Made by a program: the position numbers and the translations under genes
Shown: positions 18,428 through 48,644 of the stretch, in pieces
Position numbering within the stretch: the first letter of the stretch is position 1
How the letters are laid out: each line of letters starts with the position of its first letter
DNA from: Halorubrum lacusprofundi ATCC 49239
Lineage (GTDB): Archaea > Halobacteriota > Halobacteria > Halobacteriales > Haloferacaceae
NCBI RefSeq assembly: GCF_000022205.1
Contig: NC_012029.1
Location: 806,001 to 870,000 of the forward strand
Reading direction: 5' to 3'
DNA length: 64,000 nucleotides
The notes under the pieces: model-generated
Told to the model about the DNA's origin: nothing
The model's input: the letters and a program-made list of their open reading frames with translations, nothing else
The model's database searches: none

Positions 18428-18788
18428 CTTATAAATAGTACGTGCGGTGGCGTCGCCGGCGGCTTTGCCGCCGGCTGCAAGCGAGAGCTTCGCTCTCGCC
18501 CTGTGCGCCCCGGTTCGCGGCCAAACAGGCCGCGAACCGACGGTGCGAGGGAGTCGATCGTCCGGAGCAACGCGGAGGACGACCGACGAGGCTGGGGAGG
18601 CGTGAGGTGCTGTGCGGTCGCGGTCGGGTGGGACTCAAAGGGGCAGCCGGGGAGGCGGGCGCAGGCTCGTTGCGCGCTTCAGTCGCTCGCTGCGCTCGCT
18701 CCTTCCAGTGCTTACGTCGCCTGCGCCCGCCTCACCGGCTGGGGCTTTGGAGGTGTCTGCCGAGCAGCAGTCGACCACTCATAAACAA
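18428..18788 (+). repeat. Mosaic repeat element copy A (TTATAAATAG-bounded)
   Basis: This copy fills most of the 483-bp spacer between the M20 peptidase gene and msrA. It begins with CTTATAAATAG (18428-18438) and GTGCGGTGGCG (18442-18452). Three perfect stem-loops follow: 9-bp arms at 18455-18463/18467-18475, 8-bp arms at 18481-18488/18492-18499, and 11-bp arms at 18512-18522/18528-18538. Conserved blocks are at 18585-18607, 18630-18646 (GGGACTCAAAGGGGCAG) and 18737-18756 (GGCTGGGGCTTTGGAGGTGT). A 12-bp inverted repeat (GCGGGCGCAGGC / GCCTGCGCCCGC) brackets the segment 18672-18713. The right end, CTCATAAAC near 18778, is a weak copy of the terminal motif. The same blocks occur on the other strand at 48.3 kb. 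Confidence 0.75.
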
Positions 18789-19439: not shown

Positions 19440-19636
19440 CTTATAAATAGTTGATTCCGGATCGACGGTGAACACCGCCAAAGCCCCAGCCGCTCGACGA
19501 TACGTGAGCGGTGACTCCTCGGTGAACACCGCCAAAGCCCCGGCCACGAGGACTCGCGGGACCCTTGCTGCGCTCCTCGCTCGCAGGCACGCGCCACCGC
19601 CTGGCTGCGGTCGCGATCACGTCGGCTATTTATAAG
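19440..19636 (-). repeat. Mosaic repeat element copy C (short, perfect terminal inverted repeats)
   Basis: The 197-bp element has perfect 11-bp inverted termini, CTTATAAATAG at 19440-19450 and CTATTTATAAG at 19626-19636. Read on the minus strand it begins with a GGCGGTGGCGC block (19591-19601), like the left block of copies A and B, and ends with two tandem copies of the right block (19466-19491 and 19520-19545), each containing GGGGCTTTGGCGGTGTTCAC. The central blocks found in A and B are missing, so this is a deletion derivative. It lies between msrA and ribH. No protein is likely. Confidence 0.75.
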
Positions 19637-19732
19637 CAATCACCACCCGATTCGCCCCGGTCCCGACCGCGTTTGTCCGGCAACCCTGCGGTCGAACGGT
19701 AGACCTTTGCCGTCCCCGGTGTGAGCGGGCGT

Positions 19733-47106: not shown

Positions 47107-48138
47107 ATGACCGAGGGCGACGGCGGCGAGACGGGCGGCGGCGACGAGGAACCGACGATCGACGGCGACGACGAACTCACCTACGCGGACGCCGGCGTCG
47201 ACATCGACGCCAGCGAGGCGGCGACCGCGGCGCTGATCGGCGCGGTCGGCGAGGGGGAGGGCGACTACGCCGGCCTGCTCGACATCGGCGACCGCTACCT
47301 CGCGCTGGCGACCGACGGGGTCGGGACGAAGCTGCTCGTCGCCGAGGCGCTTAGCGACTACTCGACGGTGGGGATCGACTGCATCGCGATGAACGTCAAC
47401 GACCTCGTTGCCGCCGGGGTGCGCCCCGTCGCGTTCGTCGACTACCTCGCCGTCGACGAGCCGGACGAGCGGTTCGCCGAGCAGGTCGGCGAGGGGCTCG
47501 CGCGCGGCGCCGAACTCGCCGACATGGAGCTCGTCGGCGGCGAGACCGCGGTGATGCCCGACGTGATCCGCGGGCTCGATCTGGCGGGGACCTGCGCCGG
47601 ACTCGCCGCGAAGGAGGCCGTCTTCGACGGCGCGGCGGAGCCGGGCGACGCACTCGTCGGCTGGCGTTCCTCCGGGATCCACTCGAACGGGCTCACGCTC
47701 GCCCGGGAGGCCGCGACCCGCGAGCACGCGTACACCGACCCGTGTCCGTTCGACGGGTACGAGACGGTCGGCGAGGCGCTGTTAGAGCCGACCCGGATCT
47801 ACACCGATCTGCTCGACCCGATGCGCGACCACGGCGTGCGCGGCGCGGCTCACGTTACCGGCGGCGGCTGGACCAACCTGACGCGGCTCGGCGCGAATCG
47901 GTACGTCGTCGACGACGCCTTCGAGCCGCAGCCCGTCTTCGAGTTCGTGCAGTCGGAGGGGAGCGTCTCTGACGAGGAAATGCACCGGACGTTCAACATG
48001 GGGACCGGCTTCGTCGCCGCCGTCGACCCCGACGCGGCCGAATCGCTGGCTGCCGAGACGGATGGGCGTGTGATCGGGCGAGTAGAGGAGGGCGATGATG
48101 ATGAGGGGAGCGTCGCGATCCGCGGACTGGAGTTATAA
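47107..48138 (+). CDS. purM: Phosphoribosylformylglycinamidine cyclo-ligase
   Basis: The 343-residue protein has an acidic N-terminal extension of about 23 residues, then TYADAGVDIDASEAATAAL, ALATDGVGTKLLVAEAL, VNDLVAAGVRPVAFVDYLAV, LVGGETAVMPDVI, WRSSGIHSNGLTLAREAA and AHVTGGGWTNLTRLG, the PurM signature. It closes the imidazole ring of AIR in purine synthesis with ATP. The ATG at 47107 was chosen for the halophilic acidic start. The stop codon TAA is part of a TTATAAG motif that marks the edge of the repeat region at 48.1 kb. Confidence 0.94.
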   Translation: MTEGDGGETGGGDEEPTIDGDDELTYADAGVDIDASEAATAALIGAVGEGEGDYAGLLDIGDRYLALATDGVGTKLLVAEALSDYSTVGIDCIAMNVNDLVAAGVRPVAFVDYLAVDEPDERFAEQVGEGLARGAELADMELVGGETAVMPDVIRGLDLAGTCAGLAAKEAVFDGAAEPGDALVGWRSSGIHSNGLTLAREAATREHAYTDPCPFDGYETVGEALLEPTRIYTDLLDPMRDHGVRGAAHVTGGGWTNLTRLGANRYVVDDAFEPQPVFEFVQSEGSVSDEEMHRTFNMGTGFVAAVDPDAAESLAAETDGRVIGRVEEGDDDEGSVAIRGLEL

Positions 48139-48200
48139 GTAGTTGTTGTCAGCGGGAATCCGGTTCCTGTCGGCACTGTAGCCGATCGCTTATAAATGGG
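48133..48200 (+). repeat. Degenerate repeat-element ends next to purM
   Basis: TTATAAGTAGTT (48133-48144) followed by CAGCGG resembles the right edge of copy B (ATTTATAAGTAGTTAACAGCGG at 48293-48314), and CTTATAAATGGGCG near 48190 resembles a left edge. Between them lie about 45 bp without other matches. They look like remains of further copies, forming a nested or stacked repeat region between purM and copy B. The remainder, to 48291, holds no gene or clear motif. Confidence 0.5.
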
Positions 48201-48291
48201 CGTTGGCGTGGGAACCTCCTCTGGAGCGGTTCTAAGCGTTCGCTAATAAATCGTTGCTGGCGCGGTGAACTGTTTCGAATTCTCATTCGGT

Positions 48292-48644
48292 CATTTATAA
48301 GTAGTTAACAGCGGATCGACGGTGAACACCTCCAAAGCCCCCAGCCGCGACGACTCGCGCGCTTTGCTGCGCGCTTCAGTCGCTCACTTTGTTCGCTCCT
48401 TGCAGTGCTTGCTGCAGCGTGCTTCGTCCTCGCGACTGCCCCTTTGAGTCCCGCCCCGCCCCGCCCCGCAGCTGCAGCCTCACGCCTCCCCAGCCTCGTC
48501 ACCGGCGCGTAGCGCCGGTTGCAAGCGAGAGATTCGCTCTCGCCCTGTCGCTGGCGCCGTCGGCGCCAGCGACTCCCTCGTGCGGGCTGCTTGCGCCCTA
48601 ACGGGCGCTCGCAGGCGCACGCCACCGCACCGTTCATTTATAAG
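48292..48644 (-). repeat. Mosaic repeat element copy B (TTATAAATG-bounded)
   Basis: This copy lies on the minus strand between purM and the 98-residue gene. Its left end is CTTATAAATG (complement of 48635-48644), followed by GTGCGGTGGCG (48620-48630). Conserved blocks identical or nearly identical to copy A occur at 48478-48500, 48436-48452 and 48326-48346, in the same order. Palindromic stems occupy 48503-48518 and 48546-48572 (12-bp arms GTCGCTGGCGCC / GGCGCCAGCGAC). Two inner modules (48369-48410, 48520-48548) lie in the opposite orientation relative to copy A. The terminal TTATAAATG includes the stop codon (48638-48640) of the adjacent gene. Confidence 0.75.

Follow-up and report, generated by a model that had tools for sequence, protein, structure and literature searches.

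In-place inversion of hairpin loops, and separate insertion of a double-hairpin mini-element, in an intergenic repeat family of Halorubrum

Two short segments that keep the same strand in a pair of oppositely oriented repeats of Halorubrum lacusprofundi, here called A and B, are real matches far above chance, but they represent two different phenomena. The longer segment, module 2, is the loop of a third hairpin (P3), truly inverted, with A as the odd, derived copy; the shorter, module 1, is part of an inserted double-hairpin mini-element of 49-53 nt and not an inversion. We have hardly any doubt that the loop flips are spacer inversions which happened in situ, and we regard as probable an overall explanation in which P3 loops flipped in place by template switching and the mini-element was inserted independently. 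A and B belong to a three-hairpin intergenic repeat of about 300 bp that has about 70 copies on the main chromosome, C2. The window is the whole analysed stretch of 64,000 nucleotides (C2:806,001-870,000), and the coordinates of A and B are window positions (Table 1).

The original prediction had described conserved blocks on the plus strand in A but on the minus strand in B, with two inner segments plus in both, and this arrangement is what we observe. The same-strand identities are exactly 28 of 29 bases for module 1 (18,476-18,504 versus 48,520-48,548) and 37 of 42 for module 2 (18,672-18,713 versus 48,369-48,410), the reverse complement giving only 15/29 and 12/42. Measured between starts, GGGACTC and CTTTGG stand 115 bp apart in A and B alike, and the inverted repeats reported near the modules are real, with DNA folding of either copy more stable than that of all shuffles (z = -5.0 for A, -3.9 for B). 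Coincidence between GC-rich palindromes, named beforehand as a reading that would undo these matches, is contradicted by A-versus-B BLAST E-values of 3e-13 (54 bp) and 3e-12 (43 bp). The further proposal, that the modules had flipped within a fixed frame by inversion at palindromes, has to be divided. It describes module 2, which occupies one frame position with opposite orientations in A and B and turns between the P3 arms with the outer boxes unmoved, as orthologues show in place; here A is the inverted copy, not B as had been reported. It does not describe module 1, which lies at different frame positions and is a separate insertion of about 50 nt.

The repeat family is old, intergenic and genus-wide in Halorubrum, and consists of fixed boxes with the hairpins P1, P2 and P3 between them. 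From the start box GCGGTGGCG the frame runs through P1, the box GAGGGAGTCG and P2 to the core GACGAGGCTGGGGAGGCGTGAGG, and from there through a G-rich spacer, the box GGGACTCAAAGGGGCAG and P3 to the end box CTGGGGCTTTGGAGGTGT. The host genome comprises 3,692,576 bases in three contigs (C2, 2,735,295 bases), and the replicons of H. lacusprofundi ACAM34 are published as a primary one of 2735 kb and secondary ones of 525 and 431 kb (PMC6011602). BLAST finds the repeat at 53 sites, and a whole-genome search for the core block gives 69 matches, 69/69 on C2 and none on the 957 kb of the secondary replicons C1 and C3, an outcome with a probability of about 1e-9 under random scatter (0.74^69). The core block occurs in 30/30 Halorubrum sampled, at 13 to 194 copies per genome, and outside the genus in a few further members of the family; all Halorubrum genomes examined contain copies of the repeat. 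Spread by plasmid or virus is unsupported: phage records have no match to the repeat, which is also nearly absent from plasmids (4 of 72,556 records, all with partial matches). An Rfam scan of the window at gathering score returned one tRNA and no other structured RNA, and the literature searched contained no description of this repeat.

Hairpin arm sequences vary from copy to copy with pairing kept. At other Halorubrum loci 84% of P3 arm positions are Watson-Crick paired, against 58% with shuffled partners, and single positions show up to four pair types; P2 hairpins of the 29-nt class are 90-93% paired and include compensatory changes.

Table 1. Features of repeat copies A and B (window positions)
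Feature	Start	End	Strand	Context and basis
Repeat copy A, start box GCGGTGGCG to end box CTGGGGCTTTGGAGGTGT	18444	18756	+	Between divergent M20-peptidase-like and msrA-like genes
Module-1 mini-element of copy A, double hairpin of 53 nt, TCGCCGGCGGC..GCCGGCTGCAAGCGAGAGC..CTCTCGCCCTGTG	18453	18505	+	Between start box and P1; empty site GTGGCG/CGCCCC in L121; unit catalogue
P1 hairpin of A	18506	18547	+	DNA folding
P2 hairpin of A, 29-nt class	18556	18584	+	Covariation within class
Core block GACGAGGCTGGGGAGGCGTGAGG of A	18585	18607	+	69 genome copies
Box GGGACTCAAAGGGGCAG of A, left foot of P3	18630	18646	+	Copy comparison
P3 hairpin of A	18647	18738	+	DNA folding, P3 comparison
Inverted P3 loop of A (module 2), derived state	18667	18718	-	Standard in L121-L125, L130, L135; 94% inverted match to L122
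Repeat copy B	48320	48628	-	Between 3' ends of purM-like gene and small conserved gene
Module-1 mini-element of copy B, TCACCGGCGC..GCCGGTTGCAAGCGAGAG..CTCTCGCCCTG	about 48499	48547	+	Between P2 and core, opposite to B frame; absent from B orthologues L181-L206; unit catalogue
P1 hairpin of B	48581	48619	-	DNA folding
P2 hairpin of B (GCTGGCGCCGACGGCGCCAGC)	48550	48570	-	DNA folding
Core block of B	48478	48500	-	Copy comparison
P3 hairpin of B	48345	48435	-	Copy comparison
P3 loop of B, standard (majority) orientation	48366	48415	-	Own-genome copies and orthologues

Several further features of these loci were noted. The gene next to copy B has its nearest named relatives in Halorubrum species. 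The orthologues L133 and L136 of locus A have no repeat, and the L133 sequence reads as a deletion between terminal short direct repeats of GCGCG type. Downstream of the msrA-like gene (window 19441-19640) stands a third copy that has lost its interior, with the start box and part of P1 apparently fused to part of P3 and the end-box sequence following as two tandem units. On the right, many copies are flanked by tandem repeats of about 55-70 bp, degenerate in sequence (GGCTGGGGCTTTGGAGGTGTTCACCGTCGATCC..TTATAAATGAGC) and carrying TTATAAA motifs, for example at window 48100-48345 and 19441-19560 and at L182, L186 and L188. Among the orthologues of locus B (L180-L206) the contents of P1 and P2 are swapped wholesale between species with the boxes kept, which suggests a possible exchange of hairpin cassettes between repeat copies.

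When P3 loop orientation was tabulated over the 51 core copies of the own genome, 38 were standard, two flipped (A and one at C2:153,622) and 11 without a recognisable motif. Across 52 Halorubrum genomes strict loop patterns, which miss variant loops, recovered 1281 standard loops in 47 genomes and 33 flipped ones in 18 genomes, a flipped fraction of about 2.5%. We read 30 of the 33 flipped loci individually, and in 29 of these the core and boxes are in place and the loop alone is turned, so that they are true inversions; the apparent flip at L151 is false, being symmetric with AAAGGGGCAG at both ends. The direction of change can be read at three loci. At locus A the loop is standard in seven orthologues from other species (Table 1) and flipped in the own copy alone; at a locus of genome G004 it is flipped there and standard in orthologues from G036, G020, G014, G023, G026 and G030; and the flipped own copy at C2:153.6k faces seven syntenic copies that are standard. 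Orthology was assigned from both flanking genes at loci A and B, from both flanks at the G004 locus, and from one flank plus synteny at C2:153.6k. As the orthologues at these three loci carry the repeat in place with a standard loop, the flips happened in situ. At locus B the loop is standard in every orthologue in which it is readable. Furthermore, when the P3 of A was compared in inverted orientation with standard P3s, its own orthologue L122 matched best, at 94% over 87 bp.

A second type of double hairpin, of about 53 nt (TTCACGAGAGC..GCTCTCGTGAGCCAATCAGAACGC..GCGTTCTGATGA), occupies one place in the P3 loop at L080, L092, L096, L150, L158 and L167. In the last three this nested element has turned together with the loop, which implies that the inverted unit is whatever stands between the arms. 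In A and L178 the inner arms are alike on both sides, while most flips exchange asymmetric inner arm bases reciprocally, a pattern that a template switch and a simple inversion would explain equally well.

Several routes to an inverted loop have to be weighed. If the P3 arms, together with the CAAAGGGGCAG/CTGGGGCTTTG boxes, recombined as homologous sequences, the loop would turn as in any inversion between inverted repeats, and this route draws support from the 31-bp inverted repeat (87%) that arms and boxes form in A, from the many flips with perfect arms of about 16 bp and from the reciprocal look of the majority. However, the perfect outer arms of the 25 distinct flipped P3s range from 0 to 20 bp, several having 10 or fewer consecutive pairs, and the spacers measure only about 50-90 bp. 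RecA/RadA-type recombination usually uses longer perfect arms than 10 or fewer pairs, and we think this route unlikely, though it keeps a real share of the probability; with the help of conversion from other copies, recombination between arms could lead to an identical product. Gene conversion from a few flipped donors, with the P3 of A received from elsewhere, is made plausible by the wholesale replacement of palindrome content at orthologous loci such as B. Against it stand the diversity of the flipped P3s and the match between the P3 of A and its own orthologue, and as a general account it appears distinctly improbable, although copying from one repeat to another may have carried some of the flips further.

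The length of P3 and its terminal inverted repeats recall the SMR-A elements of Haloquadratum, and it could be supposed that P3 was inserted independently, in either orientation, as a mobile element of about 115 bp. Yet P3 is already in place in the orthologues, and in flipped copies the asymmetric outer boxes (AAAGGGG..GGGGCTTT) hold their polarity while the loop alone turns, which makes such insertion very improbable; P3 lies within the frame in all copies read, and frames without it resemble deletions. We are just as sceptical of a dedicated invertase or HUH nuclease flipping the loops, possibly as a regulatory switch. The boundaries do always fall inside a hairpin, and copy A does sit in the promoter region shared by two divergent genes, but arm sequences vary freely between copies with no conserved crossover site evident in the P3 arms, flips are rare, B is flanked by gene 3' ends, locus A has no repeat in two species, and among the Y1 transposase loci of the own genome no matching gene was found. 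A general function as promoter or terminator was rejected on similar grounds: the gene starts beside A diverge, the gene ends beside B converge, and L133 and L136 have no repeat at locus A.

P3 arms covary strongly, and in several flips they are too short or too imperfect to serve homologous recombination of the ordinary kind. Intrastrand template switching fits these observations, and in our analysis template switching at the hairpin is the reasonably likely mechanism of the flips. A replication fork would copy the folded P3 hairpin, the nascent strand would change template inside the palindrome, and the loop would be copied backwards before the strand switched back, leaving an inverted spacer and homogenised arms. 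Published work describes this combination, an inverted spacer between homogenised arms, as the mark that polymerase template switching between inverted repeats leaves behind (PMC8794818; PMC8604942). In the Halorubrum flips the spacer is inverted with flanks and outer arms unchanged, and at three loci orthologues polarise the derived state. The comparison covers a single genome of the species itself. The original prediction had also offered selection for structure rather than orientation. The arms do covary, but selection is not needed, as mutation alone can give the pattern: template switching also repairs arms, and arm covariation alone is thus no proof of selection for structure.

The mini-element to which module 1 belongs has the layout TC, hairpin, TGCMAG, hairpin, CTG, with the pattern TCRCCGG..GCCGGYTGCMAG..CTG. 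In A it interrupts a sequence that is intact in the orthologue L121, and in B it stands on the other strand at another frame position and is absent in all orthologues; these different positions, and orthologues without either insert, mean two insertions and not one flip. Other copies carry it at further frame positions, sometimes in tandem and nearly always preceded by G, and in the own genome it has one orientation per frame position. It was found in 10/10 Halorubrum sampled, and scattered copies without a repeat core nearby occur in other haloarchaeal genera and families; in two other genomes (L352, L365) it follows just after an apparent tRNA gene 3' end (GTTCAAATCTC.., TTCAAATCTC..). The filled and empty pair L120/L121 has no detectable target duplication, and neither has a related unit in L184 compared with the unfilled L181. 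Because of this lack of duplication, the mini-element may spread by single-strand, hairpin-dependent insertion, either IS200/IS605-like or passive. An IS200/IS605 parent was sought and rejected: the own genome has nine Y1 transposase genes with no significant match to the module, and the surroundings of these nine loci match neither the mini-element nor the 300-bp frame. In its second hairpin the 3-nt loops TTC and GAA occur between identical arms (L074, L078, L089, L095, L096), as though flipping extended even to loops of this tiny size. A single dedicated single-strand hairpin system, rather than chance replication errors, might both insert the 49-53 nt unit and flip the loops, which would place the unit among the smallest recognisable mobile DNA elements, across several haloarchaeal families; we hold this to be improbable.

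With more than 1000 natural copies of one hairpin in about 50 species, and orthologues giving direction, palindrome loop inversion becomes countable in an archaeon, and with it how frequent the event is and how far it depends on the lengths of arm and loop and on the direction of the fork. The flipped loops and inserted double hairpins are a natural record of palindromic DNA rearrangement, in which the mini-element is a separate small puzzle. They also counsel caution, in that arm covariation, usually taken as selection for RNA structure, here goes together with inverted spacers, as would be expected of a palindrome that is maintained by mutation itself.

Among known systems, template-switch mutations at hairpins (PMC8794818; PMC8604942) resemble the P3 flips in that a loop or spacer inversion is bounded by stem arms which are homogenised or covary. 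The published rRNA loop inversions span about 4-8 nt, whereas the P3 loops span about 50-90 bp, belong to a dispersed DNA repeat, have flipped repeatedly and, in three cases, carry a nested element. REP sequences and GTAG- and CGTC-tagged palindromes (PMC3733652) share with the mini-element short, often paired, extragenic hairpins; its left foot, however, is G followed by TC, preceded not by an invariant GTAG or CGTC tag but by GCG, CAG, TCG, AGG, CTG or GTG before TC, and no Y1 transposase locus is flanked by units. The closest precedents come from Haloquadratum walsbyi. Its 'SwitchRepeats' (PMC3119063) are listed as whole repeats in forward and reverse; in Halorubrum the loop alone turns, the frame is unchanged and the direction of change is read from orthologues. 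The palindrome-associated transposable elements (PATEs) of the same organism, one of which has shrunk to its terminal palindromes, fused into 52 bp (PMC3119063), resemble the mini-element, which likewise has two near-terminal palindromes and no detectable target duplication and is too short for a transposase; its palindromes, on the other hand, have no significant match at the own genome's nine Y1 loci, where the search for an IS605-type parent whose ends agree gave nothing. SMR-A elements, about 110 bp long and inserted in palindromes (PMC3119063), are like P3 in length, in terminal inverted repeats and in lying inside palindromic elements, but P3 appears to act as part of the frame and not as an insertion of its own. 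The Halorubrum repeat family has features of each of the Haloquadratum walsbyi classes and fits no one definition fully.
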